A DNA stretch of 27,552 nt from a virus. The stretch lies in the IMG/VR virus record IMGVR_UViG_3300042891_000672, positions 1 to 27,552 of that record. One strand, written 5' to 3'. This document shows, piece after piece, positions 5,361-20,547 of this stretch (position 1 is the first letter of the stretch; every line of letters starts with the position of its first letter). A program made the position numbers and the translations under genes. Below the pieces are notes generated by a model that saw only the letters and a program-made list of their open reading frames with translations, ran no database searches and was not told the DNA's origin.

Positions 5361-5825
5361 ATGATAAAACTAATTAACTTAATCAAAGAAATTCTTACTG
5401 AAGAATTTGAACAGAAGAAAAAAGTAACAGGTAGAAGATTTATTCCTCAAGTAACAATATTACCTGCTGAGACTAAAGATCAATTTAAAGAACATTTTAA
5501 GTTAGTTAAAAGTGCCGATGGTGAGTATAGATTGTATATTAGTACATTCCTTAAAGATGCTTTAGAGTCATTAAGTAGAGGTCGTACTAGTCGTGATACT
5601 CAAAAAAGATTATCACCATTAGCTAAAATGGTATCTGAAAGAATGCCTCAAGAAATTAGAGGATTACTTAAAAAATATTCTGAAAAATTAAACTCAGGAT
5701 TACAAATGTATTCAATCAATACTAAAATTAAAGAAGTAACCCCAGAAGGTGACATAGTATTTTACAACCCAGGTAATAAAGCAATGGCTAGTAAGGCATT
5801 TGATCCAACTATTACAGAAGAATAA
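5361..5825 (+). CDS. Putative capsid-targeted internal protein (154 aa, unknown function)
   Basis: The first 14 residues, MIKLINLIKEILTE followed by E, form a short amphipathic leader ending in a hydrophobic-x-Glu site (LTE). This is the pattern shared by many proteins of this window and resembles the T4 capsid-targeting sequence cut by the prohead protease. The remainder is charged and mostly helical (ETKDQFKEHFKLVKSADGEY, SPLAKMVSERMPQEIRGLLK) and ends DPTITEE. No known fold was recognised. The start at 5361 is supported by the leader itself and by the A-rich context. It follows the structural operon and precedes a GIY-YIG-like nuclease by 5 nt. Virion localisation is inference. Confidence 0.65.
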   Translation: MIKLINLIKEILTEEFEQKKKVTGRRFIPQVTILPAETKDQFKEHFKLVKSADGEYRLYISTFLKDALESLSRGRTSRDTQKRLSPLAKMVSERMPQEIRGLLKKYSEKLNSGLQMYSINTKIKEVTPEGDIVFYNPGNKAMASKAFDPTITEE

Positions 5826-5830
5826 ATATT

Positions 5831-6292
5831 ATGTACTTACTAGAATCAGTTATGTCTGTTGAGGATTTAATCAACAATGAAAGTTTTGACCCATCACAAT
5901 ACGAAGGATATATTTATATTACTACATTTTTAAATTTAAATCGTAGTTATATAGGTAAAAAGAATTTCTTCCACACTACTAATGTTAAATTAGGTAAAAA
6001 AGAACTAGCCGCTTTACCTGTTACTCGTGGTAAAAAACCAAGCAAAAAACAAGTAAGAAAGGAAAGTGACTGGAAAACATATTATGGCTCATCCGCTGAG
6101 GTTAAAGAATTATTAAAAACTGAACCTAAAGACAGTATAGTTAGAGGTGTGTTACGTTTATGTAAATCAAAAAAATCTTTAACTTATTATGAAAACAAAT
6201 ATTTATTTCAATATGGGGTATTAGAAGACCCAAAGAGATGGATTAACGATAATATTCAGGGGCGTTTTTTCTCATCTGATACCTTAGAATAA
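5831..6292 (+). CDS. GIY-YIG-like endonuclease (SegE-like phage family)
   Basis: The N-terminal half carries the two signature strands of GIY-YIG nucleases: EGYIYITTFLN (GIY position) and SYIGKKNF (YIG position). They are followed by ESDWKTYYGSS and the later YYENKYLFQYGVL and NDNIQGRFF blocks. This arrangement is the one I recall from small GIY-YIG/SegE-like proteins of T4-like cyanophages. The Glu in YYENKYLF is the likely metal ligand. Length (153 aa) fits a stand-alone nuclease domain without a DNA-recognition extension. Whether it acts as a homing endonuclease, in host DNA degradation or in recombination cannot be told. It lies 5 nt after a tagged gene and 36 nt before the next. It does not itself carry a clear leader peptide. 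Confidence 0.65.
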   Translation: MYLLESVMSVEDLINNESFDPSQYEGYIYITTFLNLNRSYIGKKNFFHTTNVKLGKKELAALPVTRGKKPSKKQVRKESDWKTYYGSSAEVKELLKTEPKDSIVRGVLRLCKSKKSLTYYENKYLFQYGVLEDPKRWINDNIQGRFFSSDTLE

Positions 6293-6300
6293 AAGACATA

Positions 6301-6308
6301 TATTTATA
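6301..6308 (+). promoter_or_regulatory. TATTTATA element (candidate late promoter)
   Basis: TATTTATA 20 nt before the ATG at 6329, the same spacing as before the gene at 2371. Function inferred from recurrence. Confidence 0.4.
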
Positions 6309-6328
6309 ACAAAAATAATTATAATAAC

Positions 6329-6877
6329 ATGACAAAAATACTAAACGAGCAATTCAATAGAATGCAAAAATTAGCAGGTTTAATTACTGAAAATAAAATT
6401 AGTGAAGAAACCCTAAACGAAAACAGATACAGAGCATCAGATTTCCCTGAAGTAACTGGATTTGAAGAAGATAATAATGAAGCAATCATTACTTTCTCTG
6501 ACGGTACTAAAGATGTAGTTGGACCAAGAAATTTTGCTAATAAAGAAGCAGGATATACTAAGTTCCTTGAGTTATTAAATACTATGGGTACCGATTCTAA
6601 AGCTAAACAAGCGGTAAGTGATTTCTTAGAAATTAAAAAATTCAATGTACTTAGTACAAGTGATATTAATAAACTTTTAGCTGACAATGGTGTAGATGAA
6701 GAATATTTCTCAGCTATGGGTGGTAAAGAAATTGAAGGAGGAACAGAGACATGGATAGATATAATAGAAGATATTATAGGTAAACCATATGACTCCAACA
6801 ACATCAGTAAAAAGGATGATATGAAAATACAAACATTCATGAATCATCTAAGCCGTTTAGGTATTGAAGTAGTATAA
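6329..6877 (+). CDS. Putative capsid-targeted internal protein with RMQKLAGLITE leader (182 aa)
   Basis: The N-terminus contains FNRMQKLAGLITE, almost the same as KRMQQLAGLLTE at the start of the protein at 12473, although the two proteins are otherwise unrelated. This points to an exchangeable leader with a predicted cut after ITE (residue 21). The mature part has a small beta segment (EAIITFSDGTKDVVGPRNFA) that could bind DNA or protein, then helices (KAKQAVSDFLEIKKF, SDINKLLADNGVDEEYF). No catalytic motif was recognised. The gene ends 11 nt before a strong terminator, so it is the last gene of its transcription unit. The start is fixed by the leader and the AATAAC-ATG context. Confidence 0.65.
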   Translation: MTKILNEQFNRMQKLAGLITENKISEETLNENRYRASDFPEVTGFEEDNNEAIITFSDGTKDVVGPRNFANKEAGYTKFLELLNTMGTDSKAKQAVSDFLEIKKFNVLSTSDINKLLADNGVDEEYFSAMGGKEIEGGTETWIDIIEDIIGKPYDSNNISKKDDMKIQTFMNHLSRLGIEVV

Positions 6878-6888
6878 AAGATATAAGT

Positions 6889-6913
6889 AAGCTTGGTTCG
6901 CCAAGCTTTTTTT
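6889..6913 (+). terminator. Rho-independent terminator
   Basis: A perfect 8-bp stem AAGCTTGG / CCAAGCTT closed by a UUCG tetraloop (6889-6908) and followed by a run of five T. This is the clearest terminator of the window and ends the unit of the gene at 6329. Confidence 0.9.
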
Positions 6914-6922
6914 ATTATAATA
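6913..6922 (+). promoter_or_regulatory. Palindromic TATTATAATA element
   Basis: A 10-bp perfect palindrome containing TATAAT (6916-6921), 7 nt before the primase ATG and directly after the terminator. Longer versions (ATATTATAATAT) precede the genes at 20687 and 23247. Candidate early/middle promoter -10 element or operator; no matching -35 box seen. Confidence 0.35.
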
Positions 6923-6928
6923 TAATTA

Positions 6929-7849
6929 ATGGTCAACCAACTGCTTGTCACATTAATTAATTCAACATTAGGAACAGGTAAACCTACAGCAAGAAGTAAT
7001 TATGCTTATACTTGTCCTAAATGTAATCATCATAAACCAAAACTAGAAATATGTTTAGATGAGAATAGTCCTGACTTCCAAAAATTTGGTTGTTGGGTGT
7101 GTAAATTCAAAGGTAAGAAATTAATAAATTTATTCAAATCAATATCTGCTCCATCAGATAAAATACTTGAATTAAAGTCATTAGTTAAAATCAATACACC
7201 TATTGAACAACAAATAGTTGATGAAAAAATTAAATTACCTGATGAGTTCCAACATATATTAAATAATCCATCATTTTCAGCTAAACGTGCCTTAACTTAT
7301 CTAAAAAGTAGAGGATTAACTGAAGATGATATTATAAAATATGGTATAGGATATTGTGAAACTGGAAAATACACTGATATGGTTATTATCCCTTCATACA
7401 ATGACTCAGGTATTTTAAATTATTTTGTTGGTAGAAGTTATATACCTGAATCAAATAGAAAACTAAATCCAAGTGTTTCACGTAATATAATACCTTTTGA
7501 AATATTTATAAATTGGAATTCACCAATCATACTATGTGAAGGTATGTTTGATGCAATTTCAATTAAACGTAATGCTATACCACTATTAGGTAAAAACATA
7601 CAATCAAAGTTAATGTCTAAAATAGTTTCATCTACTGTTAAAAAGGTATATATAGCTTTAGATAAAGACGCTATTAAACAAGCACTTGATTTTTGTGAAC
7701 AACTTATTAATGAAGGTAAAACAGTACATTTAATAGAACTAGAAGACAAAGATCCAAATGAAATGGGATTTAAATCTTTTATTAAGCTACTATACAATTC
7801 AACACCTCTAACATACTCAGGTTTATTAGAGAAAAAACTACAGTTATGA
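6929..7849 (+). CDS. DNA primase, DnaG type with zinc ribbon and TOPRIM (T4 gp61-like role)
   Basis: An N-terminal zinc-binding motif is visible: CPKC (residues 29-32), His 34/35 and CWVC (55-58). This is followed by a primase RNA-polymerase-type core with YLKSRGLTEDDIIKYGIGYC, IIPSYNDSGILNYFVGRSY, then the TOPRIM motifs ILCEGMFDAIS (Glu about 204) and YIALDKDA (Asp about 245 and 247). It synthesises RNA primers at the replication fork and would act with a phage helicase, which is not in this window. Length (306 aa) is close to phage primases. The start follows a terminator and a TATAAT-containing palindrome, so this gene probably opens an early or middle transcript. It overlaps the following nuclease gene by 4 nt (ATGA), implying translational coupling. 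Confidence 0.9.
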   Translation: MVNQLLVTLINSTLGTGKPTARSNYAYTCPKCNHHKPKLEICLDENSPDFQKFGCWVCKFKGKKLINLFKSISAPSDKILELKSLVKINTPIEQQIVDEKIKLPDEFQHILNNPSFSAKRALTYLKSRGLTEDDIIKYGIGYCETGKYTDMVIIPSYNDSGILNYFVGRSYIPESNRKLNPSVSRNIIPFEIFINWNSPIILCEGMFDAISIKRNAIPLLGKNIQSKLMSKIVSSTVKKVYIALDKDAIKQALDFCEQLINEGKTVHLIELEDKDPNEMGFKSFIKLLYNSTPLTYSGLLEKKLQL

Positions 7850-8613
7850 GTCAAATAAAACACTCTTACAATAGAATCTTAGAAATATCTGATGATCATA
7901 AACAGATAACATTACCTGATTCTAGGTATTACCGCCGTAATGGTAACTATTATCCAAGTGTAACTTATGTATTAAGTTACTATCCAAAAGGTAAATATTT
8001 TGAAGACTGGTTAAAAAAAGTAGGTTACTCAGCAGAATACATTGTTAAGAAAGCTGCTGAAGAAGGTACTCAAGTACATGAAATGATTGAGGAATATTTA
8101 AATGGAAATGAAGTTAATTTCTTAAATCAACAAGGTTATCCTCAATATGACCCAGATGTATGGCAAATGTTTTTACGTTTTGTTGAATTTTGGGAAACAT
8201 ATAATCCTAAACTAATTGAAACTGAAGTTCATTTATTTTCAGATGAACTTAAAGTAGCAGGTACTTGTGACTTAATATGTGAAATTGATGGTAAATTATG
8301 GTTAATTGATTTTAAAACATCAAATCATATTCAATCAACATATGAATTACAAACAGCAGTTTATGGACAATGTTACAAAGAATGTTATGGTAAAGATGTT
8401 GACCATTATGGTATATTATGGTTAAAATCAACTAAACGTAAACTAAACAAAGAAAAAATGAGTGGTAAAGGATGGGAAGTAGTAATATCAGAACGTACAC
8501 ATGAAGAAAATATAGACATATTTAAAACTGTGAAACGTTTATTTGATTTAGAAAATCCACAGTCTTCACCAATATTTACTGAATTCGTCACAACCGCTAA
8601 ACGAAAAATATAA
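7846..8613 (+). CDS. PD-(D/E)XK nuclease of the RecB/Cas4 type
   Basis: All RecB-family motifs are visible in order: GTQVHEMIEEYL (motif I, His), GTCDLICEIDG (Asp), LWLIDFKTSN (the D-x-K core, IDFKTS) and ELQTAVYGQCY (QxxxY). Family members are single-strand-specific or 5'-3' exonucleases used in recombination, end processing or DNA metabolism. The N-terminal part (YYRRNGNYYPSVTYVLSYYP) is the one typical of phage homologues. Length 255 aa is normal. It overlaps the primase stop by 4 nt and so is probably cotranslated with it, placing it in replication/recombination. There is no cysteine cluster of the Cas4 iron-sulfur kind, so it is probably an iron-free enzyme. Confidence 0.85.
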   Translation: MSQIKHSYNRILEISDDHKQITLPDSRYYRRNGNYYPSVTYVLSYYPKGKYFEDWLKKVGYSAEYIVKKAAEEGTQVHEMIEEYLNGNEVNFLNQQGYPQYDPDVWQMFLRFVEFWETYNPKLIETEVHLFSDELKVAGTCDLICEIDGKLWLIDFKTSNHIQSTYELQTAVYGQCYKECYGKDVDHYGILWLKSTKRKLNKEKMSGKGWEVVISERTHEENIDIFKTVKRLFDLENPQSSPIFTEFVTTAKRKI

Positions 8614-8630
8614 CTCCGCTTATTTACTAA

Positions 8631-8638
8631 TATTTATA
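8631..8638 (+). promoter_or_regulatory. TATTTATA element upstream of a hairpin
   Basis: TATTTATA 42 nt before the ATG at 8681. Unlike the other copies, a terminator-like hairpin lies between it and the gene. Candidate promoter with a structured leader, or a chance match. Confidence 0.3.
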
Positions 8639-8666
8639 AGAGACTTGGACTCCCCAGGTCTCTTTA
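8638..8666 (+). terminator. Terminator hairpin (possible attenuator)
   Basis: An 11-bp stem AAGAGACTTGG / CCAGGTCTCTT with one G-T pair and a 5-nt loop, followed by a T-rich tail (TATTATAT). It ends the primase-nuclease unit. Because TATTTATA lies just before it, it could also sit in the leader of the gene at 8681. Confidence 0.75.
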
Positions 8667-8680
8667 TTATATTTACATTG

Positions 8681-9505
8681 ATGATAAAACTTGTAGAACT
8701 GTTAAAAGAGATATCCCAAAATAAAATGGTGATCATGGCTGGTGGAGCAGGCGCTGGGAAATCATATCTTCTTAATAATATTAAATCAAAAGTACCTGGT
8801 GTTAAAATTCTTAATCCTGACACTTATGTTGAGGATAAAGACAGTCCAATGTATAATAACTTAACTAAAGCATCATCTCAAATTGATGATGTAGATGTAC
8901 CTAATGCTATAGCTAGTGGTGAATCATTTATTTGGGACACAACAGCATCTAATGCTGCTAAAATGTTAGGTGGAGAATATCGCCGTAAACAAGTAAAAGG
9001 TATATTAAACACAGAAGGTTATGATGAAATGATGGTAATGGTTTATACACACCCTATAGTATCATTTTTACGTAATTTTAAACGTGAACGTAAAGTACCT
9101 ACAGTAGGTGTATTATCAACATGGAACAATGTTTATGGTAATATAGAGGCATATAAAAATAAATTAGGTGATAATTTTATATTATACCAAGCACCTGATA
9201 AAGAATATCAAAAACAAATTGATGAATTTAATGAGGCTGCTAAAAATAATAAATTAAAAGAATATTTTGAAAATCTATTATCATCAGGTGAGTTCAGATC
9301 AACATTTAGAAAAGATAAACCTGAACCTCAAACACCAGAAGAAATAGAAAAAGCTGAGAAACAGAAAGCACAGTCTAAAGCATTGGTTGATGCTCAAATA
9401 GATAAACTTGAAAAAGAGTTTATGAATATTGAAAACAAAGTTAAAGACTCAGTCATAACAGATGAAAATGAAGTAATAAATAAGGTAGTTAATTTTATAA
9501 AATGA
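8681..9505 (+). CDS. Zeta-toxin-like P-loop kinase with capsid-targeting-like leader (274 aa)
   Basis: I place the start at ATG 8681 rather than an in-frame upstream ATG at 8645 that lies inside the terminator hairpin. From 8681 the protein begins MIKLVELLKE, the same leader class as the genes at 5361, 18251 and 18948. A Walker A motif GGAGAGKS (residues 21-28) follows directly, then LNPDTYVEDKD, SFIWDTTASN and an RERKVPTVGVLSTWNNVY block. These resemble the Zeta-toxin/polynucleotide-kinase-like group of P-loop kinases, which phosphorylate sugar nucleotides or nucleic-acid ends. The C-terminal 70 residues are a charged helical tail. It overlaps the next gene by 4 nt. Function (toxin, nucleotide kinase or RNA-end kinase) is open; the leader suggests virion packaging. 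Confidence 0.7.
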   Translation: MIKLVELLKEISQNKMVIMAGGAGAGKSYLLNNIKSKVPGVKILNPDTYVEDKDSPMYNNLTKASSQIDDVDVPNAIASGESFIWDTTASNAAKMLGGEYRRKQVKGILNTEGYDEMMVMVYTHPIVSFLRNFKRERKVPTVGVLSTWNNVYGNIEAYKNKLGDNFILYQAPDKEYQKQIDEFNEAAKNNKLKEYFENLLSSGEFRSTFRKDKPEPQTPEEIEKAEKQKAQSKALVDAQIDKLEKEFMNIENKVKDSVITDENEVINKVVNFIK

Positions 9506-11070
9506 GTTTAGGCAAATATATAGCAGAAATAATAATTGAACCTACCCCTAAAAAAGTAGCTTTATACCCAGGAGCATTCAAACCACCTCATAGAGGCCAT
9601 TTTGAATTAGTACAACGTTTATCTAAAGTAGCAGATGAAGTACTAATAGTTATTTCACCTATTGCTCGTGATGGAATAACAGCTCAACAATCTCTATCAG
9701 CATGGAAATTGTATTTACCTTTATTACCTAAAGCTAAAGTTATTATATCAAATGTAGCTTCACCTGTATCATATGTTTATGATTATATTAAATCAAACCC
9801 ACAACAAGACATAGTGGTAGCATTTGGAAAAGGTGAAGAAGAACGTTATAAAGCGCTTTTAAACAAAGAAAAATACTCTAATGTTAAAGTATATGATGCT
9901 GGTAATATAGATGATTTAAGCGCGTCTAATTTACGTAATGCTATTAATTCAAACAACCCAGCTGAAATAGCTAAATTCTTACCTCAAGATATTGAAGTAG
10001 CAGATTATGTGAATGCATTAGGTATAAACTTAAGAACCGAACCTCCATTTAATTCAATAGCTGAAGAAGGTTCATTGGTTAAAAAAGCAAAAACACCTAA
10101 AGGACAATTTCTTAAAAACTGGGGTATTGATATGTATGCTCTTGAATTAGCTAGAGGATTAGAAGAAAACACAACTCCAGACTTAACATTTGATCAAGCA
10201 TTAACTAGTTTAACTCAATACTTTGTAAAACAAGGTTTTCCTGTTAATCCATTACCTAAAGTTATTATTAATGATAAAGACCAAGAAAATGCTTCTAAAC
10301 TATTAGGTAAAACTGCTTATTATGATCCTAATAAAAAAGAAATAACATTATTTACATTAGGTAGACATCCAAAAGATATATTACGTTCTTTTGCTCATGA
10401 AATGATTCATCATATTCAAAACATGAAAGGTCAAATTCATGATGTAGATACTACTGACACAACATCAAATGATTATTTAAGTCATCTTGAACAAGAAGCA
10501 TATACTCAAGGTAATATGACTTTTAGAAACTGGGAAGATAAAATAAAAAACAATAAGGTTATGAATGAAGAAAAAGAAAAATCAAAATACACAATATTCT
10601 GTGATATGGATGGTGTGTTAGTTGATTTTGATAAGGGTTATGAAGATTTAACTGGTTTACATACTAAACATGCTGATGTACAAGACAATAAAGTTTTTTG
10701 GAATAAATTTAAACAAAGTTTAGGCGATAAAAACATGACTGAATATGATTATTGGGCTAAATTAGATTGGATGCCTGATGGTAAAGAATTATGGAAGTAT
10801 ATAAAACAATATAACCCATACATTCTTACAGCTCCTTCATTAAACCCAGAATCTAAAGAAGGTAAAAAAGCCTGGGTGACTCGTTTAGACAATATGAAAA
10901 ATATATATTTTAGACCTGCTCAATATAAGTCTGATTTTTCAAATGAAAATCGTATACTTATTGATGATAGGGCTGATACTATTGAAAGATGGAACGCTAA
11001 AGGTGGTATTGGTATTTTACATACTTCAGCTGCTGATACAATTAAACAACTTAAAAAATTAGGACTATAA
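9502..11070 (+). CDS. Three-domain fusion: nucleotidyltransferase, HExxH metallopeptidase-like, HAD phosphatase
   Basis: Residues 1-13 (MSLGKYIAEIIIE) look like a leader with a hydrophobic-x-Glu end. Residues 18-175 are a cytidylyltransferase/NMN-adenylyltransferase-like domain: YPGAFKPPHRGH (HxGH, His 30 and 33) and the C-terminal SASNLRNAI motif. Residues about 195-345 contain FAHEMIHHIQN (HExxH, His 299 and 303) and LEQEAYTQGN, whose Glu is a plausible third zinc ligand. Residues 363-522 form a HAD domain: IFCDMDGVLVDFD (nucleophile Asp 368), the LTAPS motif and ILIDDRAD. The HAD part resembles 5'(3')-deoxyribonucleotidases. Possible protease sites (SIAE-E, VMNE-E) lie exactly between the domains. 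Substrates are unknown; nucleotide, NAD or RNA-end metabolism are the reasonable options. Confidence 0.8.
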   Translation: MSLGKYIAEIIIEPTPKKVALYPGAFKPPHRGHFELVQRLSKVADEVLIVISPIARDGITAQQSLSAWKLYLPLLPKAKVIISNVASPVSYVYDYIKSNPQQDIVVAFGKGEEERYKALLNKEKYSNVKVYDAGNIDDLSASNLRNAINSNNPAEIAKFLPQDIEVADYVNALGINLRTEPPFNSIAEEGSLVKKAKTPKGQFLKNWGIDMYALELARGLEENTTPDLTFDQALTSLTQYFVKQGFPVNPLPKVIINDKDQENASKLLGKTAYYDPNKKEITLFTLGRHPKDILRSFAHEMIHHIQNMKGQIHDVDTTDTTSNDYLSHLEQEAYTQGNMTFRNWEDKIKNNKVMNEEKEKSKYTIFCDMDGVLVDFDKGYEDLTGLHTKHADVQDNKVFWNKFKQSLGDKNMTEYDYWAKLDWMPDGKELWKYIKQYNPYILTAPSLNPESKEGKKAWVTRLDNMKNIYFRPAQYKSDFSNENRILIDDRADTIERWNAKGGIGILHTSAADTIKQLKKLGL

Positions 11071-11071
11071 T

Positions 11072-11602
11072 ATGATTAAAAGATTAGTAACAGACTCACC
11101 AGAAACACTACAGTCAGTAGTTGGTAATATTAAATCTTTCTTCAGTAAAACTGATAGTAAGGGTAAACCATACAAATATACAATGAAAGCAACTACTGAA
11201 AAACGTAAATTTGTAAATCCTGAAACAAAAAATATTGAAGAAAAAGATATTGAAGTATTAAACATAACTGATATTGAATCAAAAGATCAAGTCACTGTTA
11301 AAATGATTCCACTTATTAAACCAGGTGAAATGCGTTTTGAAATTGGTGGTGAAGGTGAAACAACAATATCCGCTAAAATTAAAGATGCTATAGCAGGTAA
11401 AGGACAATGGAAAGATTATAAAAAAGATACTTTAAAAACTAAACTTAAAGAAAATATTAGTAAACTTAAAGAAGAATCAGTATTTAAAATTGATCCTGAA
11501 TTAGCATTCAAAATATATAATATATTAAGTACTGATTTCCCAGAAATAGGAAATGAACATACTAAAAGTTCATTCTTTTATTACTTAAATAACAAGTTAT
11601 AA
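11072..11602 (+). CDS. Hypothetical protein (176 aa)
   Basis: I do not recognise this protein. It begins MIKRLVTDSPETLQSVVGNI and has a lysine-rich beta-prone central part (KPYKYTMKATTEKRKFVNPE, DIEVLNITDIESKDQVTVKM, GEMRFEIGGEGETTISAKI). It ends with a helical tail containing FKIDPELAFKIYNIL. No leader with a clear Glu site, no membrane segment and no catalytic motif are visible. It starts 1 nt after the stop of the fusion gene and shares one base with the next start (TAATG), so it belongs to the 8681-12168 operon and is probably translationally coupled on both sides. Confidence 0.6.
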   Translation: MIKRLVTDSPETLQSVVGNIKSFFSKTDSKGKPYKYTMKATTEKRKFVNPETKNIEEKDIEVLNITDIESKDQVTVKMIPLIKPGEMRFEIGGEGETTISAKIKDAIAGKGQWKDYKKDTLKTKLKENISKLKEESVFKIDPELAFKIYNILSTDFPEIGNEHTKSSFFYYLNNKL

Positions 11603-12168
11603 TGTTAAATAAAGAGTTTCAAAAGAAAGATGTCCAACGCCTCCGTAACCTTGTAAAGGGTAAATATGGTGAAAAAACAACAGTTGGAATAGGTTATACC
11701 AAAAAACATGACCAATATGAAGAAGGTGATGTTTGGGAAGAAAATGGACGCACATGGACTATTAAAAATGGTATAAAACAAAATATAACTAAATTGGATA
11801 AAGCTAAAGAGTTATATGTTATGCCTTTATTATGTCCTAAGTGTAATAAACCCATGAGGGTTCATATTGATAAGTCTTTTTATAATGTTCACAAAAGCTG
11901 TATGAATTGTGTTGTTGAATTTGAGACAAAATTAAAAGCAGAAGGCAAGTGGGAAGACTATCAGAAACAAATGTACAATCAAGCCCTGGATAATCTTATT
12001 AATAACTTTAAAGATTGGGCTGATGATGAGTTAAAAGAAAGTAATTCATCATTTGTAACTGAGGATGGTGTTGTGGAGAATTGGATTGGTGGTAATAAGG
12101 AAAAACTAAAACAAAATGTTGAGGAATCAATAGAGTATTTAGAAAAACTAAAACATCAATCTGAATAA
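11602..12168 (+). CDS. Zinc-ribbon phage protein (188 aa), function unknown
   Basis: Contains a CPKC motif (LLCPKCNKPM) and a CMNC motif (KSCMNCVVEFE) about 25 residues apart, enough for a four-cysteine zinc ribbon. Before it lies a conserved-looking block (EEGDVWEENGRTWTIKNGIK, QNITKLDKAK), which I associate from memory with hypothetical proteins of T4-like cyanophages. After it the protein is helical and acidic (EGKWEDYQKQ, LINNFKDWADDELKES). No nuclease or polymerase motif is seen; nucleic-acid binding is a fair guess from the ribbon. Its ATG overlaps the previous stop by one base. A 7-bp inverted repeat follows the stop. Confidence 0.65.
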   Translation: MLNKEFQKKDVQRLRNLVKGKYGEKTTVGIGYTKKHDQYEEGDVWEENGRTWTIKNGIKQNITKLDKAKELYVMPLLCPKCNKPMRVHIDKSFYNVHKSCMNCVVEFETKLKAEGKWEDYQKQMYNQALDNLINNFKDWADDELKESNSSFVTEDGVVENWIGGNKEKLKQNVEESIEYLEKLKHQSE

Positions 12169-12173
12169 TTTTA

Positions 12174-12191
12174 ATGTAGTTAACACTACAT
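12174..12191. repeat. Perfect inverted repeat ATGTAGT-TAAC-ACTACAT
   Basis: A 7-bp stem with a 4-nt loop just after the zinc-ribbon gene. There is no T-run after it, so it may be a weak terminator, an mRNA-end hairpin or a protein-binding site. Confidence 0.5.
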
Positions 12192-12221
12192 ATGTTTCAC
12201 CTAATTAAATAAACATGGACA

Positions 12222-12443
12222 GTGATAAACAACCAACAAAAGACAAACCTCGAAGTTTTAACTCAAATATTACTCATGGCTGGAATGTTCTTCAATCCAT
12301 TAGGCTTCGATATCCTTTTTTATTCAGTGATGAAACTCACGAATTCTTATTGGATTACAACATCTCTTTTTTACCTGGCATCAGCTTCGTGCTTTGGAGT
12401 GTATTACTTCTTGCGTAAGAAATTAAAGAATAACAAACCTTAA
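12222..12443 (+). CDS. Small membrane protein with two predicted transmembrane helices (73 aa)
   Basis: Two hydrophobic segments are clear: ILLMAGMFFNPLGFDILFY (about residues 16-34) and SYWITTSLFYLASASCFGVY (about 42-61), followed by a positively charged tail RKKLKNNKP that should stay in the cytoplasm. The reading frame has no ATG before the first helix; the only good start is GTG at 12222. An ATG at 12215 lies in another frame, whose product is less protein-like. So the start is either GTG or the two frames are joined by a frameshift or sequence error. Small two-helix phage membrane proteins may act in lysis control, superinfection or host-membrane remodelling; nothing here decides this. 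Confidence 0.55.
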   Translation: MINNQQKTNLEVLTQILLMAGMFFNPLGFDILFYSVMKLTNSYWITTSLFYLASASCFGVYYFLRKKLKNNKP

Positions 12444-12445
12444 CA

Positions 12446-12453
12446 TATTTATA
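12446..12453 (+). promoter_or_regulatory. TATTTATA element (candidate late promoter)
   Basis: TATTTATA 19 nt before the ATG at 12473, matching the spacing at 2371 and 6329. Confidence 0.4.
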
Positions 12454-12472
12454 CCATATAATATATACTATA

Positions 12473-13120
12473 ATGGAACAATTTAAAAGAATGCAACAAT
12501 TAGCTGGTTTACTTACTGAAGGTATGGCTGCGTACGAATATGAAAAAGGTAAAGAAGCTGGTGAAAAAGCTGAAAAGAAAAAAATGAAAAAATCTGAATT
12601 AAAAAAACAGATTAAAGAAATGATCTTAGCTGAGATAGATATTGATTTATCTAACACTGATAGTTTTTATGACCCAGTTTATGAAGCTAAGAAAAAGAAA
12701 AAAGACGAAGAAGAAGTAGAAATATCAGCCACTGAAGAAATCCCAGCTGGTGAAGAAACACCTATTACTGAACCTACTTCACCATCATATGATGTTCAAA
12801 AAGAATTAATGGACGCATTAAACGCGGCTAAGTCAATCGGTGATGAAAAATTAGTTCGCCAAATTGGTAATGCGTTAACATACTTCACTCGTACACAAGT
12901 AGCTAAAGAAGAAAATCCACCTGCAATGAAAGAAGCATTAAGTATGGATGCTATGGAACGTATGGAAGGATTAGCTAATATACAAGATTTATATATCTTT
13001 AAAAAGAAACTCAACGCATTAACCTTAGATTGGACGCAAGACGGATTTGAGAAAGAAGATATTATTGAATATATATCTGAACTTATTAATCAGAGTACTA
13101 CACTTAATTATATAAAATAA
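12473..13120 (+). CDS. Putative capsid-targeted protein with two leader-like segments (215 aa)
   Basis: Begins with FKRMQQLAGLLTE (predicted cut after Glu 16), near-identical to the leader of the gene at 6329. A second leader-like stretch, MKKSELKKQIKEMILAE (residues 38-54), matches the other leader class seen at 17141 and 17536. So this protein carries both types in tandem, separated by a very Lys/Glu-rich linker (EKGKEAGEKAEKKK). An acidic Thr/Pro-rich linker (about residues 78-105) follows. The C-terminal half (YDVQKELMDALNAAKSIGDE, LVRQIGNALTYFTR) is a helical domain I do not recognise. It could be a scaffold or core component as well as cargo. It is followed 5 nt later by the H1-like gene. 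Confidence 0.65.
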   Translation: MEQFKRMQQLAGLLTEGMAAYEYEKGKEAGEKAEKKKMKKSELKKQIKEMILAEIDIDLSNTDSFYDPVYEAKKKKKDEEEVEISATEEIPAGEETPITEPTSPSYDVQKELMDALNAAKSIGDEKLVRQIGNALTYFTRTQVAKEENPPAMKEALSMDAMERMEGLANIQDLYIFKKKLNALTLDWTQDGFEKEDIIEYISELINQSTTLNYIK

Positions 13121-13125
13121 ACAAC

Positions 13126-13296
13126 ATGAAACAAGAGTTATTCGAAAAAATGCAACAAACATGGGATATGTTGGTTGCTGAGCACAACGGTAAAAGTAAA
13201 GCTGCTCAAGGTCGCGCTAGAAAATTAGCAAGTGAATTAAAAAAATTAGCAACTGAATATAAAAAAGCATCAGTAGCTGAAGCAAAAGCTCAATAA
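13126..13296 (+). CDS. Histone H1-like (Hc1-type) small basic protein, 56 aa
   Basis: A short ORF with ATG at 13126 and TAA at 13294-13296. The product begins MKQELFEKMQQTWDMLVAE and continues NGKSKAAQGRARKLASELKK, then LATEYKKASVAEAK. This closely follows the pattern of the roughly 58-aa histone H1-like proteins common in Bacteroidetes (NGNKAAGxRARK...KEFRKxSVEASK, from memory), which bind and compact DNA. It lies 5 nt after one tagged gene and 1 nt before another. The first 19 residues end in LVAE, so it may also use the leader/cleavage pattern. As a virion protein it could condense packaged DNA or protect it on entry. The host-type sequence argues for acquisition from a Bacteroidetes. Confidence 0.75.
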   Translation: MKQELFEKMQQTWDMLVAEHNGKSKAAQGRARKLASELKKLATEYKKASVAEAKAQ

Positions 13297-13297
13297 T

Positions 13298-14317
13298 ATG
13301 AAACACTCAGACTTAAAAGAAATTGTTAAGAACATTCTGGAAAACAAAATGAACATGCCAGAGGAAAATCCAGTAGATGTAGTAACAATGGATGTTCCAT
13401 TGTTTATTCGTTTATTAGAATATGCTCGTGAAGATGCTAAAACAGATATGGATTTACATGACGTAGCTGAAAAAGCAGTATCTTTAAGTACTGAGGGTAA
13501 AGTATTATCAATGGAAGACTATGATAGTATAGCTCCTACTGAAGAACAAATGAATGAAGACCTAGACATAGGTCATCAAGATGATGAACCTGATATGTTA
13601 AAAGGTGATGTATTCCGCATTGGTCAATATGCTAACGATTTATATAAAATGTTAGATACATTTGATAAAATGCCTGGAGAAGTAGATTTCCCAGATTGGT
13701 GGCAAAATAAAATTCATTTAGCCGCTGATTACATGGACAAAGCTAAACATTACTTAGAACATGAAATGGTACAACCTGCTGTTGATGCATCATTAAGTGA
13801 AGCAACATCTGATGTTCGTTCAATAGCTAGAGAAATAGCTGATGAACTAGAAGCTATGCTTTCATATGATTCTAATGATAAAGGAAAATTAGTTGACACT
13901 GCTATTGTTAAGTATGATTTAACTCCAGACCAACAACAAGATTTAGATTATGAATTATTCATGATTTTAAATAAAGGTGATATGGAAAGATTTGATGATG
14001 GTAGTGAAATGACTGAAAAGAAATTAACAAAAGCTGAACTAAAGAAACGTGAAGAAATAGTTAAGTCAATGAAAGATACTTTTAAAGGACCTAAAGCAGC
14101 TATGTATGCTATAGCTACTGATAAAGCTAAAAAAGTAGCTGAAGTGTTAGCTAAAAAATTAAAAGAAGAACGCTTTAAAAAAGGAACAGACATTGGTAAA
14201 CCTGGTAAAGGATTTGCTAAAATAGCTAAATCTGCTGCTAAACAATATGGCTCAAAAGAAGCTGGCGAACGTGTAGCAGGTGCAATTCTTAAAAAAGTAT
14301 TAGCTAAGAAAAAATAA
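13298..14317 (+). CDS. Putative capsid-targeted protein with basic C-terminal DNA-binding-like region (339 aa)
   Basis: The leader is MKHSDLKEIVKNILE (cut predicted after Glu 15). Residues about 88-158 (LDIGHQDDEPDMLKGDVFRI, GQYANDLYKML, FPDWWQNKIHLAADYMDKAK) form a helical domain I remember as recurring in marine T4-like phages. A second helical domain (SIAREIADELEAMLSYDS) follows a possible cut site SLSE-A (residues 166-170). The C-terminal 100 residues are highly basic, with KGPKAAMYAIATDKAKKVAE and GKGFAKIAKSAAKQYGSKEA, then GERVAGAILKKVLAKKK, suited to DNA binding. It may be a core/scaffold component or an internal DNA-associated protein. Overlaps the next gene by one base. Confidence 0.65.
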   Translation: MKHSDLKEIVKNILENKMNMPEENPVDVVTMDVPLFIRLLEYAREDAKTDMDLHDVAEKAVSLSTEGKVLSMEDYDSIAPTEEQMNEDLDIGHQDDEPDMLKGDVFRIGQYANDLYKMLDTFDKMPGEVDFPDWWQNKIHLAADYMDKAKHYLEHEMVQPAVDASLSEATSDVRSIAREIADELEAMLSYDSNDKGKLVDTAIVKYDLTPDQQQDLDYELFMILNKGDMERFDDGSEMTEKKLTKAELKKREEIVKSMKDTFKGPKAAMYAIATDKAKKVAEVLAKKLKEERFKKGTDIGKPGKGFAKIAKSAAKQYGSKEAGERVAGAILKKVLAKKK

Positions 14318-14781
14318 TGACTAAACAAGAACTAATAGATAAAATTAAATCAATAGCTAGAAACAAATACAAAAAACAAATAACATTTGTTTCAGGTATT
14401 AAATTCACAGCTGTTAGAGCGTTTCCTAAATTGCATGATGTATTAGTTGATTTAATGACTGATGCTTATGAAATTTTTGTAACAGATATTCAATGGGTAG
14501 CACCTAAACCTACTACATTTAGAATTCAATTAGTTAATGGTGAACATTTCTTTTTAACTAATACTGATAGAACATGGATTGCTACAATTGAAGGTAAAAA
14601 GTTCTATTTATTAAACTTAAGTGAAAAACAAGATGCTATAAACGCTATCGCTAGAGTATTAAGATATGGTACAACCAAGAAAGGCACCGAAGGAACCCAA
14701 GGAACAGAAGCAGGCACCGAAGAAATTCCAGCCGAAGCCCCTCCCGCCGAAGAAACACCGGAAGAATTACCGCCAGCCTAA
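14317..14781 (+). CDS. Hypothetical protein with Pro/Glu/Thr-rich tail (154 aa)
   Basis: Not recognised. The N-terminus MTKQELIDKIKSIARNKYKK resembles the helical leaders of its neighbours but lacks the terminal Glu site. The body is a compact alpha/beta-looking domain (FTAVRAFPKLHDVLVDLM, TTFRIQLVNGEHFFL, TWIATIEGKKFYLL). The last 35 residues are a repetitive acidic tail (KGTEGTQGTEAGTEEIPAEA, then PPAEETPEELPPA). The DNA encoding this tail (about 14690-14781) uses GC-rich codons (GCC, CCG, CCC, ACC) unlike the rest of the window. The gene overlaps the previous one by a base and ends 11 nt before the next. Confidence 0.6.
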   Translation: MTKQELIDKIKSIARNKYKKQITFVSGIKFTAVRAFPKLHDVLVDLMTDAYEIFVTDIQWVAPKPTTFRIQLVNGEHFFLTNTDRTWIATIEGKKFYLLNLSEKQDAINAIARVLRYGTTKKGTEGTQGTEAGTEEIPAEAPPAEETPEELPPA

Positions 14782-14792
14782 AACAAAATAGT

Positions 14793-16007
14793 ATGGACGT
14801 ATTAGATCTATTTTTTAAAAAATACTCATATAAATTTTCAAAAGGATATCCTGACATGAATAATGAACAGGATATCTTGTTACTGGAAAATATATTAAAT
14901 GAATTAGGTATAGACTTAAATGAAGGATCAGTTATGAACAACTCAGCGAAAGCTATTAAAAAAATCATTGATTCTTCAGAGGGAAAACAATATAATTTTA
15001 AATTACAAACTGCAAATAATAGGTTAGGTAATTTAGATAAAATATCTAAAGAAGAATTTTTAAATATACTTAACTCAGTATTCCCAAATGTTCCTATTAA
15101 AGTTCATGCTCCAGGTGAAGGACCAAACGTTAAACCTAAAGGTAGTTCTAAATTCAATATGTATGAATTCACTACTGAAGACGGTAATGTTCAAATTATA
15201 CTATCTGGTGGAGCAAATGAAGGAGAAAAATATGAACAATCATTTACTAGTGATTTAAAAGCGTCAGCTGGTAAATCTTTAGAAGATATTGAAAATGAAA
15301 ATGTTAAAAAATTATTCAAATCATTAAATATTAATCCTAAAAATTTAACACCAGAAGATATTGACTTTGCAGGTACAGCTGACACAAAACGATCTCTTAG
15401 TTTTACTAATTTAGAGAATATTGGTAAAAAAATAGCTGATGTTATTATAAATTATAAAGGTAAAGAATATTATATATCATTAAAAAATATATCTGGACAT
15501 ACTTTTTATAATGGAGGTAATGTTCCATTTATAGTATTTGATAAAAATAGTAAAGTAATCTTTGATAAATCTAAATATAATAATAATGAAATAATCAAAA
15601 CATTGTTTGAAATATTTAACATAGATATTAATAAAGTAACCCAAGGATTAAATGAATATATAGCTGGAGAAGGTGATATTCCTAATAGTTTTGAACCAGT
15701 TAATAATGTTAATATTAACGCTATTAAAAATATGATAACATCAGGTTTTGGATATGGTTACTATTATGTTAAAGAAAAAAAAGATGGTTTAAGTATAATA
15801 CCTCTTTTAACACAAGAAGACGCATATAAAGCTATAGGAGATATATCATCTGCTTCTATAAAATACCCTAATTCTGAAACAAAATCTCTAACTATTAAAG
15901 TACCTTTAGATAGTGAAATATTTGGAAAAGTAGATTGTTTGATAGAAATAAGAAATACAACAGGTAATGTTTTACCATTGTCTCTTAAAATAAAAACTAA
16001 CAAATAA
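14793..16007 (+). CDS. Probable PD-(D/E)XK-like nuclease with leader-like N-terminus (404 aa)
   Basis: The central region has the layout of a PD-(D/E)XK-type nuclease: NEGEKYEQSFTSDLKAS (Glu about 145/148), DIDFAGTADTKRSLSF, then IADVIINYKGKEYYISLKN, where Asp 216 and S-x-Lys 231 fit the D-x(n)-xLK core, followed by GHTFYNGG. I recall this block from hypothetical restriction-endonuclease-like proteins of marine phages; the assignment is by motif only. Two starts are possible: ATG 14793, or ATG 14856 (residue 22). From the second, the protein starts MNNEQDILLLENILNEL and ends its leader in DLNE-G, like its tagged neighbours. A 9-bp inverted repeat surrounds the second ATG. It would cleave DNA in the host cell if injected. 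Confidence 0.6.
   Translation: MDVLDLFFKKYSYKFSKGYPDMNNEQDILLLENILNELGIDLNEGSVMNNSAKAIKKIIDSSEGKQYNFKLQTANNRLGNLDKISKEEFLNILNSVFPNVPIKVHAPGEGPNVKPKGSSKFNMYEFTTEDGNVQIILSGGANEGEKYEQSFTSDLKASAGKSLEDIENENVKKLFKSLNINPKNLTPEDIDFAGTADTKRSLSFTNLENIGKKIADVIINYKGKEYYISLKNISGHTFYNGGNVPFIVFDKNSKVIFDKSKYNNNEIIKTLFEIFNIDINKVTQGLNEYIAGEGDIPNSFEPVNNVNINAIKNMITSGFGYGYYYVKEKKDGLSIIPLLTQEDAYKAIGDISSASIKYPNSETKSLTIKVPLDSEIFGKVDCLIEIRNTTGNVLPLSLKIKTNK
14845..14876. repeat. Inverted repeat around an internal start codon
   Basis: GATATCCTG (14845-14853) and CAGGATATC (14868-14876) form a perfect 9-bp stem; its 14-nt loop contains the ATG at 14856, an alternative start of the nuclease-like gene. Confidence 0.55.
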
Positions 16008-16015
16008 TATTTATT
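16008..16015 (+). promoter_or_regulatory. TATTTATT variant element 3 nt before an ATG
   Basis: AATATTTATTACC-ATG mirrors AATATTTATAACC-ATG at 5361 with one change. Confidence 0.3.
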
Positions 16016-16018
16016 ACC

Positions 16019-17128
16019 ATGAATAACATCAAAAAAATAATTAAAGAAATTATACAACAACGTAATCTTAAAAAAGATTGTGGTTGTGGATGTAATGGTA
16101 AATGTGGAAAAAATGAGGCACCAATGTTAAATGAAAATTTAACACACAAGTCTTTAATTAGTGAACACATGCAATATCATATTGATAATAAATTGGCTCT
16201 TACCGAAAATACATTTCGTTATGGATCTACATCATTCCTTAATTTATGGAAAGAAGCCAGAAAATTATACTCACGCAACTTACTTGAAGTATCAGGTTTA
16301 GATAAAGATATAATAGTTGAAACTAATTTAGGTGAATACGGTATATATGAAGGTCAAGAAGTACCATTAGATTTACCTATGATTGAAGAAGGTCAAATGT
16401 TAGATAACTATGAAGTTGATTTTTTTCATACTAAAGCTAATGTATATGCTAATATAGAAATACCTAGTGAAAATCCAACATTTGAAGATGATCTTCAAAT
16501 AAAAGGAATAGGTAAAACTGAAGAAGAAGCATTTGAAGATTTAAAACAAAATTACAATAATTACAAGAAAACAGGAATAAATGAAGCTGAGTATGATTTC
16601 AATATCAATAAGGTATGGGATTTTATAGAATCACGACCATTTAATAATCCTAATTATATGCCCAAATTTAGCACAGCTAAAGAAATATGGGATGAATGGG
16701 GAGATAAAGAAAAACAATTATATAGTGATTTCCAATGGGAAGATAAATATAATGGTCAATTACACCCTAAAGAAAAAGCTAATCTTCAACGTAGAAAAAA
16801 TTATGATACTTTAGCAGGAATAAACGAAGCTGAATACCAAGGTAAAGATGTTCAACTTAATAAACCTAAACGTGGTGGATCTAAAAAATTCTATGTTTAT
16901 GTAATGGATCCTAAAACTAAACGTGTTAAAAAAGTATCATTTGGAGCTGCAGGTGGAGGTCAAAACTTAGCAGTTAAAATTAGAGATCCTAAAGCACGTA
17001 GAGCATTCGCTTCACGTCAAAACTGTGATAAGAAAAAAGACAGAACAAAACCCGGTTACTGGAGTTGTAACATAGGCAGATATTGGAAATCATTAGGTGG
17101 CGGTTCAAATTTTAGCGGATATTGGTAA
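16019..17128 (+). CDS. Putative internal virion polyprotein with repeated protease sites (369 aa)
   Basis: Begins with the helical leader MNNIKKIIKEIIQQ, then a cysteine-rich knot CGCGCNGKCG (residues 21-30) that could bind metal. Along the chain several segments end in hydrophobic-x-Glu: MLNE-N (36-39), LISE-H (46-49), ALTE-N (60-63), and two copies of INE-AEY (187-192 and 268-273). Those two match the T4 prohead-protease rule (I/L)xE-A well. Two aromatic/acidic regions follow (WDFIESRPFNNPNYMPKF, EIWDEWGDKEKQLYSDFQW). The C-terminal 90 residues are basic (GGSKKFYVYVMDPKTKRVKK, KIRDPKARRAFASRQNC, RTKPGYWSCNIGRYW), a domain I recall from marine phage and other large-virus proteins. Probably processed into several internal peptides; this is inference. 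Confidence 0.65.
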   Translation: MNNIKKIIKEIIQQRNLKKDCGCGCNGKCGKNEAPMLNENLTHKSLISEHMQYHIDNKLALTENTFRYGSTSFLNLWKEARKLYSRNLLEVSGLDKDIIVETNLGEYGIYEGQEVPLDLPMIEEGQMLDNYEVDFFHTKANVYANIEIPSENPTFEDDLQIKGIGKTEEEAFEDLKQNYNNYKKTGINEAEYDFNINKVWDFIESRPFNNPNYMPKFSTAKEIWDEWGDKEKQLYSDFQWEDKYNGQLHPKEKANLQRRKNYDTLAGINEAEYQGKDVQLNKPKRGGSKKFYVYVMDPKTKRVKKVSFGAAGGGQNLAVKIRDPKARRAFASRQNCDKKKDRTKPGYWSCNIGRYWKSLGGGSNFSGYW

Positions 17129-17130
17129 AA

Positions 17131-17138
17131 TATAAATA
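17131..17138 (+). promoter_or_regulatory. TATAAATA, the T4 late-promoter word
   Basis: An exact TATAAATA lies 2 nt before the ATG at 17141. It matches the T4 late -10 element, but the spacing leaves no leader, and such words are frequent in AT-rich DNA. Confidence 0.2.
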
Positions 17139-17140
17139 AC

Positions 17141-17503
17141 ATGAAAAAATCAGAATTAAAAAATATTATTAGAGAAGAAATATCTAAAGTATTAAATGAA
17201 TCTTATTATGCATATTTAGGTGGTAACACTAATTACACAGATGAAGAAATGCGTCGAAATATAATTGATAAAGAGTTTGGTAAAGATAATTACAATGCAT
17301 ATATTATGTTTGATGAAACTGCTCCAAAAGGACAGTATGATGCGATGAAAGCTAAATATGCAAAGGACACATCTAACTGGGAAGTACTTTGGAGGTCACA
17401 ATCGTATCAATCTGAAGCTGTTCTTTCACCTGATAAAAAAGTCATCAAAGCTAAGGTATTTGGTAAAGGAGGAATTATAGGAGCACTTTATATAAAAAAA
17501 TAA
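17141..17503 (+). CDS. Putative capsid-targeted small protein (120 aa)
   Basis: The first 20 residues, MKKSELKNIIREEISKVLNE followed by Ser, are a long form of the leader, with a cut predicted after LNE. The rest is a small alpha/beta protein (DEEMRRNIIDKEFGKDNYNA, NWEVLWRSQSYQSEAVLSPD, VIKAKVFGKGGIIGALYIKK) that I do not recognise. The start of the leader reappears as an internal segment in the protein at 12473 (MKKSELKKQ) and, modified, at 17536 (MKLSELKQ). It stands 12 nt after the polyprotein gene. Confidence 0.65.
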   Translation: MKKSELKNIIREEISKVLNESYYAYLGGNTNYTDEEMRRNIIDKEFGKDNYNAYIMFDETAPKGQYDAMKAKYAKDTSNWEVLWRSQSYQSEAVLSPDKKVIKAKVFGKGGIIGALYIKK

Positions 17504-17535
17504 AAATACTATAGAATATACATACAACAAATAAC

Positions 17536-17886
17536 ATGAAACTATCAGAATTAAAACAACATATTAAAGAAGAATATTCATCAGCTTCAAAACTGTATGA
17601 AATCGATGGTATCATAGTTATTGATACTGACGTAGCATTCCATAAACAAATTATGTCAGATATTCGTGCTATTAAAGGTGTAACAATTGTTAAAGATTAT
17701 ATTTATGAACCAGTAGGTGCTGCTGAAAATAGAGGATATGCTGAGTTAAGTATTAAAATAGATCCATCACCATTTGAAAATAGTGATCCTAAAGTTATTA
17801 CTAATACCGTAATTAGAGATATTAAAGCAACTAAAGGTGTACGCGCGTTTAAATTAAAACAAGGACCTAGTCTAACCACAGTATAA
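17536..17886 (+). CDS. Putative capsid-targeted small protein with ferredoxin-like pattern (116 aa)
   Basis: The leader is MKLSELKQHIKEE followed by Tyr; its last segment lacks a strong hydrophobic residue two before Glu, so the cut site is less certain. The remaining 100 residues show a beta-alpha-beta pattern twice (GIIVIDTDVAFHKQIMSDI, GVTIVKDYIYEP, YAELSIKIDPSP, KVITNTVIRDIKATKGVRAF), suggesting a small ferredoxin-like fold. No catalytic residues were recognised. Overlaps the next start by one base (TAATG), implying coupled translation with the basic cysteine-rich protein. Confidence 0.6.
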   Translation: MKLSELKQHIKEEYSSASKLYEIDGIIVIDTDVAFHKQIMSDIRAIKGVTIVKDYIYEPVGAAENRGYAELSIKIDPSPFENSDPKVITNTVIRDIKATKGVRAFKLKQGPSLTTV

Positions 17887-18254
17887 TGGATTTACGTAAA
17901 TTAGTTAAAGAAGTATTAAACGAACAGAAAGCAAAACGTGACAGATGTTTACGTATTGCTGACCGTAAGTTTGATAAACCATCTGCTTATAAATCAGGTG
18001 CTGTAGTTAGATGCCGTCAAGGTAAAATATGGAAAGGCCTAAAAGAAGACGAATCACTTCATAAATGGTTTAAACGTCAAGGTACACCAGGTAAAGAAGG
18101 TGGATGGGTAGATTGTAATACTTGTAGAGACGGTAAATGTAAAGCATGTGGTAGAAAAAAAGGTGAAAAACGTGCTAAATACCCTTCATGCCGTCCAACA
18201 CCAGCACAATGTAAACAACCAGGTAAAGGTAAAAAATGGGGGAAAACAAAATGA
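17886..18254 (+). CDS. Tagged basic cysteine-rich protein (DUF5872-like), 122 aa
   Basis: The leader is MDLRKLVKEVLNE (predicted cut after Glu 13). The rest is strongly basic with seven cysteines. The C-terminal part (LHKWFKRQGTPGKEGGWVDC, NTCRDGKCKACGRKKGEKRA, KYPSCRPTPAQCKQPGKGKK) closely follows a domain I remember as DUF5872, known from marine phages and giant DNA viruses (KWVD...CGRKKGE...YPxCRPT). The N-terminal half (CLRIADRKFDKPSAYKSGAV, VRCRQGKIWKGL) is another short basic block. The cysteines may bind zinc; DNA binding is likely from charge. Overlaps the previous and following genes by 1 and 4 bases. Confidence 0.7.
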   Translation: MDLRKLVKEVLNEQKAKRDRCLRIADRKFDKPSAYKSGAVVRCRQGKIWKGLKEDESLHKWFKRQGTPGKEGGWVDCNTCRDGKCKACGRKKGEKRAKYPSCRPTPAQCKQPGKGKKWGKTK

Positions 18255-18955
18255 TTAAGTTAATAGATTTATTAATTGAAATAGGTGTAGATCTATCTAA
18301 TTATAAAGGACAGATATTAAAAGGAGATGTTGTCCGAGCACCTAAAAATTTTCCATTAAGTGGAGAAAAACTTGATAAATCATTATCCCTTAAAGTGACT
18401 AAGATATCTAGAGAAGGTGTTAATAGATATAAATTATCTTTAGAAGATACTAAAACAGGTAAAAAATATACAATTAGAAACTATCAAATGGATGGTGAGT
18501 ATAAAGGTAAAAAATTACCTAAATGGGGTTTGGTAAGAAAATCTAAAGAAAATACTAAAGAAGCATCTAATCCACAAGCAGGAACAGCCATACCTTATGG
18601 ATCAGGATTTGCTCCTGTAAAAGAAACTAAAAGAATACCTCGTAAATCAGGTCAACCTGCTAAATCAAGTAAACATTCTGATCTTTATACAGATGAAGAT
18701 CCTAAAGGAACTATTACTGGTTTAGGTTTTAAAGATGCTGCTACAGCTAAACAAGGTATATCTAAAATAAATAAAGCTAAAACAACTCATGCTCATAAAG
18801 TACAAGCCACTTTAGTGATGAAACAAAGAGCAAAAGTAGCTATAGAAAGAACTAAAGATCCTGAAAAGAAAAAGAAATTAAAATCTGCTTATCAGATTTG
18901 GTCTAAAAAATTAGAACAATTAAAGCGTAAAACTAAACGATTAAAAAATGATTAA
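18251..18955 (+). CDS. Tagged basic protein with C-terminal HSDLYTDEDPKGT domain (234 aa)
   Basis: I choose ATG 18251 (ATGA overlap with the previous stop) over the in-frame ATG at 18236. From 18251 the protein opens with MIKLIDLLIE, the leader class of 5361, 8681 and 18948. Residues about 15-100 are a beta-rich segment (ILKGDVVRAPKNFPLSGEKL, YKLSLEDTKTGKKYTI) that resembles small nucleic-acid-binding barrels, but this is a guess. The C-terminal 95 residues (SKHSDLYTDEDPKGTITGLG, FKDAATAKQGISKINKAKTT, HAHKVQATLVMKQRAK) match a domain I recall as widespread in marine phages and some bacteria, of unknown function. The end is very basic (KRKTKRLKND). It overlaps the superoxide dismutase gene by 8 nt. 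Confidence 0.65.
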   Translation: MIKLIDLLIEIGVDLSNYKGQILKGDVVRAPKNFPLSGEKLDKSLSLKVTKISREGVNRYKLSLEDTKTGKKYTIRNYQMDGEYKGKKLPKWGLVRKSKENTKEASNPQAGTAIPYGSGFAPVKETKRIPRKSGQPAKSSKHSDLYTDEDPKGTITGLGFKDAATAKQGISKINKAKTTHAHKVQATLVMKQRAKVAIERTKDPEKKKKLKSAYQIWSKKLEQLKRKTKRLKND

Positions 18956-19649: not shown

Positions 19650-19665
19650 TAATAAATAAAAAATA

Positions 19666-20286: not shown

Positions 20287-20530
20287 CATAGAAGTTACAG
20301 ACAAATATATTATTCGCGAATTTAGCGAAAATGTAGATCCAATTGAATTATTATGGCATCGTGATGATGAAAACCGTGTTGTTGAAATATTAGGTGAGAC
20401 AGATTGGAAACTACAACTTGACAATCAGTTGCCAACTTCTATAAATTCCCCAATATTTATATCAAGACACGAGTGGCATCGTGTTATTAAAGGAACAGGA
20501 ACATTAAAATTGAAGATACATAAATCATGA
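20270..20530 (+). CDS. Conserved small phage protein (86 aa)
   Basis: Starts inside the end of the previous gene (17-nt overlap, different frame). The product contains KYIIREFSENVDPIELLWHR, then ENRVVEILGETDWKLQLDNQ and ISRHEWHRVIKGTGTLKLKI, which I recall as a small conserved phage protein usually next to the same neighbour. The length (86 aa) and the His/Trp/Arg pairs might suit a small cupin-like or regulatory fold, but this is speculation. Followed by a 156-nt non-coding stretch holding a TATTTATA element and hairpins. Confidence 0.6.
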   Translation: MKPYTDIEVTDKYIIREFSENVDPIELLWHRDDENRVVEILGETDWKLQLDNQLPTSINSPIFISRHEWHRVIKGTGTLKLKIHKS

Positions 20531-20547
20531 AAAAACAAGTAATATAA

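Follow-up and report, generated by a model that had tools for sequence, protein, structure and literature searches.

A Three-domain Chain with Candidate Cut Sites

Does a viral chain that joins a HxGH nucleotidyltransferase, a HExxH domain and a HAD domain act as one multi-enzyme, or is it a polyprotein from which individual enzymes are set free inside the capsid, as an earlier note on this DNA had proposed? The open reading frame (ORF) that raises the question, 9502-11070 on the forward strand (522 amino acids, ATG start), lies in a 27552-base virus record (IMG/VR record IMGVR_UViG_3300042891_000672), the whole of which is called the window here. We assign a probability of roughly two in three to the reading that its product is a capsid-targeted head-cargo polyprotein, cut by a T4-type prohead protease. 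Comparative support for the polyprotein idea is strong at the level of sequence because the leaders of the separate genes bear sites, the HAD and N-terminal fusion junctions that were tested keep sites, a T4-type protease is present in related genomes, and sites are depleted inside two of the three domains. The parts of the ORF are as follows, with an arrow at each proposed cut.

9502..9540, +, leader MSLGKYIAEIIIE, residues 1-13; IAE9 and IIE13 are possible cut sites, and residues 2-11 form a helix in the AlphaFold2 model
9550..10035, +, domain 1, HxGH nucleotidylyltransferase, residues 17-178; TIGR00125 over cut-off, structural match to PPAT
10036..10176, +, linker 1, disordered; sites SIAE188↓E and GLEE222↓N flank a lineage-specific insert
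10054..10065, +, proposed cut site SIAE188↓E189; near relatives have SVTE, SITE and SINE
10177..10557, +, domain 2, zincin-like HExxH, residues 226-352; AlphaFold2 model of the domain alone, zincin structural matches
10558..10569, +, proposed cut site VMNE356↓E357; SLNE↓A in relative L002, VMNE↓Q in L004 and L016
10582..11067, +, domain 3, predicted HAD 5'(3')-deoxyribonucleotidase, residues 361-522; phrog_2643, structural match to 3bwv

All three domains that the note had recognized were confirmed by motif and structure matches, domains 1 and 3 by profile matches as well. An AlphaFold2 model of the 522-residue chain, built with 51 sequences, has a mean predicted local distance difference test (pLDDT) of 86 and a predicted template modeling score (pTM) of 0.43; as modeled, the chain is three confident domains with no fixed mutual arrangement, and pLDDT drops below 50 only at residues 180-223 and 353-359. 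The two sites proposed between the domains, SIAE188↓E189 and VMNE356↓E357, fall inside these sole two stretches. The domain boundaries do match the proposed cuts, and the catalytic residues are kept in relatives. An extra site, GLEE222↓N, closes the linker-1 insert, which is missing in the close relatives L004 and L016. Assembly error or chance fusion is ruled out, given the same fused ORF in near relatives on other contigs and at least six changes of HAD fusion on the tree described below.

Identity of the Three Domains

In domain 1 the HxGH motif reads GAFKPPHRGHF and lies within a Rossmann-like fold, as in the HxGH nucleotidylyltransferase superfamily ([H/T]xGH). TIGR00125 scores 29.5 bits against a cut-off of 27.7, and structural comparison (VIA) gave Z 15.6 over 146 residues with E. 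coli PPAT and Z ∼14.8 with NadD. The fold and motif are shared with the PPAT/NMNAT enzymes (CoaD, NadD, NadR), but identity to these is only about 14-21% and every PPAT or NMNAT equivalog model fell far under its cut-off on domain 1, so that the claim is made at superfamily level only and the naming of a substrate from family models was ruled out. For a role in NAD+ restoration (NARP-like) the literature gave no direct link, and no pathway partner was recognized among the neighbors scanned.

Domain 2 carries HEMIH at residues 299-303 and EQEAY at 330-334, and its metal-site residues are invariant across 72 aligned sequences, HExxH being kept together with ExEAY. Modeled alone with AlphaFold2 (pLDDT 90.7, pTM 0.86), it places the HExxH helix and a downstream Glu helix on a three-stranded sheet, as expected of a zincin, and zincins such as PprI/IrrE, Wss1 and ArdC predominate among its structural matches, the highest Z being 7.9. 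Because Z stays under 8, we place the domain in a fold class and not in a family. Foldseek gave no match under E 0.001 (IrrE and selecase were among the best rows), the sequence had no match to solved structures up to E 10, and no profile library has a hit above its cut-off on the HExxH part; PF18818, the polyvalent-protein MPTase, matches 15 of 72 members weakly (best E 0.011, under the curated cut-off). The model supports a small zincin-like fold class with no close known family.

Domain 3 is, by sequence, a predicted HAD 5'(3')-deoxyribonucleotidase, with the catalytic motifs on a deoxyribonucleotidase fold. It matches phrog_2643 (5'-3' deoxyribonucleotidase) at about residues 360-522 with E 2.6e-26 and the deoxyribonucleotidase-like structure 3bwv with Z 14.8 (VIA), and its DMDG and LIDDR motifs are kept in relatives. 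Fold and motifs are common to the phrog_2643 enzymes; however, domain 3 has a leader or a fusion, whereas the nine checked homologues from other phages have neither and begin at the HAD core. In a tenth, from phiM5, a long N-terminal part stands in place of a short leader. The nucleotidases of Pelagibacter phage HTVC008M (L125:1432-2022) and Methylophilales phage Melnitz (L126:1450-1962) each carry a short leader, with VQE↓Q in the first and INE↓E in the second, so that nucleotidases may be packaged more widely.

Leaders and the Prohead Protease

T4 gp21 cleaves after L/I-x-E, and the targeting peptide of T4 IPIII consists of ten residues, of which residues 8 and 10 govern processing (PMC9026906). 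The leader of the window ORF, MSLGKYIAEIIIE, likewise ends in L/I-x-E, as does that of the gene directly upstream, which the ORF start overlaps by 4 bases:

8681..9505, +, P-loop (zeta-toxin-like) kinase; PF06414 at 31 bits over 22.3; leader MIKLVELLKE↓I

The kinase start is likely ATG 8681 and not TTG 8645. Relatives were kept as the best 80 matches to domains 1 and 2, and expected [LI]xE counts, given in brackets, come from composition shuffles. All 53 distinct kinase leaders contain [LI]xE (18.8±3.3), with E at residue 10 in 44 of them, as in the T4 capsid-targeting peptide; so do 30 of 31 distinct domain-1 leaders (13.4±2.7) and 48 of 49 leaders of standalone HAD genes (22.2±3.2).

Among the related genomes, a record 154840 bases long encodes a gp21-type protease (PF03420, E 8e-32), and PF03420 was also found in two more environmental genomes and in Flavobacterium phage immuto. 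These four large relatives, which hold both cassette and S77 prohead protease, all have a gp23-type capsid protein. In the gene block of the 154840-base record that runs around the cassette up to the protease, 21 of 35 genes have an N-terminal [LI]xE (11.3±2.6); enrichment is weaker in its structural genes (12/32; 6.3±2.2), and its early and replication genes showed no clear enrichment. About a dozen more window ORFs (5361-24823) have short [LI]xE leaders such as MIKLINLIKEILTEE, and therefore many packaged proteins may be encoded here.

The domains, the disordered linkers, the conservation of leader and sites, and the protease of related genomes are direct observations. By comparison with T4 we infer packaging, cleavage and injection, as follows. 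Like the capsid targeting sequence of T4, the short N-terminal leader would carry the chain into the core of the prohead; the T4-type (S77) protease would trim the leader and cut the flexible linkers after [L/I/V/M]-x-E, leaving three separate products in the head, namely an enzyme of adenylyltransferase type, the zincin-like domain and the deoxyribonucleotidase. The freed enzymes would be injected with the DNA, along with the leader-bearing kinase, and early in infection would work on pools of small molecules (nucleotides or cofactors); the zincin domain may then act on a host protein. That the function lies in nucleotide or cofactor chemistry, plus possibly a protease, is our guess.

Sites at Junctions and Possibly Mobile Domains

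Linker 1 contains [LI]xE in 72 of 77 sequences (50.6±3.8) and the region after domain 2 in 34 of 44 (17.7±2.8). Per 100 residues, the motif occurs 5.5 times in leaders, 2.4 times in linker 1 and 3.3 times after domain 2, against 0.54 inside domain 1, 1.8 inside domain 2 and 0.57 inside domain 3, and it is rarer than in shuffles inside domain 1 (67 versus 124) and domain 3 (15 versus 25). Chance occurrence in AT-rich, Glu-rich sequence is ruled out by the shuffles and by this depletion.

Domains 1 and 2 are fused in all 84 distinct relative proteins examined. The HAD is in most relatives a separate gene just downstream with its own leader and is fused in several lineages; on an 82-row tree the fused state needs six changes, every one forced by well supported branches. 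All 13 fused HAD junctions tested keep [LIVM]xE within ∼20 residues of the HAD core (6.1±1.7). In 14 other loci a further domain is fused in front of domain 1, and all 14 of these copies keep [LI]xE directly before domain 1, some of them within a whole leader-like stretch, e.g. LVISLIKPFLLE followed by ↓NELNK. The linkers vary freely in length and insert between relatives.

Further domains behave alike. In many relatives a second HExxH domain follows domain 2 and begins right after [ILVM]xE↓G[RKS]YD. A zinc ribbon of ∼45 residues (CDNCGW..CHKCGHDNTP) occurs at various junctions, in other genes, or alone behind a leader of its own; every copy listed has [LIV]xE eight residues upstream of the first Cys. 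The simplest account of these sequences is that domains move as cassettes, each with its own cut site.

The second HExxH domain was seen at L012-L015, L018, L046, L057, L062, L075, L080, L101 and L104 (e.g. RHEIEHLTHGE in L012), and zinc-ribbon copies at L104:10443-10769, L038, L040-L043, L072-L074, L079, L081, L082, L084, L092, L093, L101 and G001:64987-65640, G001 being the 154840-base record. A short recurring module, FG[IL]xxYAxELxxGLEE (window 10120-10167; L044, L045, L074, L081, L084, L089, L092, L096 and L100), sits at either junction depending on lineage and in many cases has LxE at its end.

The earlier note had called the architecture unfamiliar, which needs qualifying, as domains 1 and 2 are common together in uncultured phages and occur also in Flavobacterium phage immuto. 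Their relatives are found at no fewer than 583 IMG/VR loci and, in a bacterial and archaeal collection, on seven contigs of metagenome-assembled genomes only, because of which the family looks phage-specific as judged from sequence. Phage immuto is the sole annotated phage with both domains; its gene for them is annotated as NMN adenylyltransferase only, and the HAD is the next gene. We would give even odds to the broader view that a large, mostly uncultured T4-like phage group, one isolate of which infects Flavobacterium, builds its head cargo as polyproteins: mobile cassettes with their own prohead-protease sites would be reshuffled, joined and separated, and the enzymes released by the head protease would be injected together.

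Weighing the Alternatives

Several points weigh against the polyprotein reading. At P3 of its last junction the window has M, which falls outside the T4 rule in its strict form; the C-terminal region of the protease itself, with MMNE↓G, SLNE↓G and ALNE↓S, shows the same M/L exchange (VMNE, SLNE), and M is frequent where the second HExxH domain of relatives begins. The window contig is a fragment that has no protease gene, the protease being read from relatives. Sampling by the best matches to domains 1 and 2 favors fused forms, and the shuffle counts take related sequences as independent. Inside domain 2 [LI]xE is commoner than in shuffles (164 versus 116), and therefore having the motif is not enough by itself. 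In a clade of 23 members domain 1 begins at MIALYPG or a like sequence, with no leader, and a literature search found neither virion proteomics nor an earlier description of this group.

The alternative that survives best is that the chain is packaged and loses the leader alone, the uncut fusion working as one multi-enzyme after injection. The constant fusion of domains 1 and 2 can mean joint working, and known giant-phage substrates lose mostly terminal propeptides (PMC10052503), but P1 Glu and hydrophobic P3 are kept at the junctions through repeated fusions while the linkers are free to differ in length and insert, and we regard this alternative as unlikely. An ordinary cytosolic fusion of metabolic enzymes, with N-terminal helices that help assembly or solubility and with sites that are only incidental, would suit the HAD nucleotidases of other phages, which look cytosolic. 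We judge it quite improbable in view of the leader enrichment in the cassette gene block (21/35 versus 11.3±2.6), weaker or absent elsewhere, and of the leaderless HAD homologues in nine other phages. Equally poor odds, or slightly poorer, attach to cleavage of the chain by its own HExxH domain, with L/I-x-E as leader relics: such processing was proposed for polyvalent-protein metallopeptidase domains (Iyer 2017; PMC5512222), and the zincin-like fold of domain 2 lies close to those of ArdC, IrrE and Wss1, but the same sites are present on the kinase and HAD genes, which lack an HExxH domain, and they fit the S77 rule. Separate translation of the HAD from an in-frame ATG at the junction (residue 354), with no protease needed, is very unlikely, as L002 has TTA there and the other fused lineages have no Met at the junction.

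Comparison with Known Systems

Capsid targeting with LxE processing in T4 and multidomain injected polyvalent proteins are already known. With the gp21-processed internal proteins and Alt of T4, the cassette genes share the short L/I-x-E leader, the kinase leader being alike also in geometry (E at residue 10), and the cassette-bearing related genomes likewise encode the S77 protease; the T4 internal proteins, however, are single mature proteins, whereas several enzymes would come from the single chain described here. Polyvalent proteins are multidomain injected phage proteins for which self-processing by zincins has been proposed (PMC5512222), and the ORF product has in common with them the phage multidomain build, zincin domains and domain shuffling. 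It differs in its smaller size, its T4-type leader and the prohead-protease-like sites between its domains, and its zincin scores under the Pfam MPTase-PolyVal cut-off. Phages phiKZ and SPN3US resemble the present case in having a diverged gp21-type protease that cuts after Glu and many packaged proteins, but the cuts reported there remove or fragment terminal propeptides, and release of several enzymes from one chain is not described. In giant phages generally, head proteins are cut mainly at terminal propeptides (PMC10052503). Our literature search found no prohead protease that frees several folded enzymes from one chain.

If the polyprotein reading is true, phage heads use polyprotein processing like many eukaryotic viruses, for injected cargo and not for structural parts, and have a natural way to fill a T4-like head with several enzymes in constant proportion. 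The motif [LIVM]xE at domain starts would then serve as a sequence rule to search thousands of uncultured phages for packaged enzymes. The claim is directly testable in the cultured Flavobacterium phage immuto.

Neighboring Genes and Further Observations

The zeta-toxin-like kinase lies upstream in 78 of the 83 testable loci that have no extra N-terminal domain, some contigs having been fetched twice. In the clade with leaderless domain 1 (L047, L051-L056, L058, L059, L065, L069, L070, L072, L083, L085, L088, L094, L095, L098, L099 and L102-L106), the kinase and HAD genes keep their leaders. A gene for a GIY-YIG SegE-like endonuclease lies within the block at window 5831-6292 (PF19835, E 2.5e-24), and a PYGSGY module at window 18236-18955 is common to other genes of the phage group (L018, L054, L088, L099 and G001).
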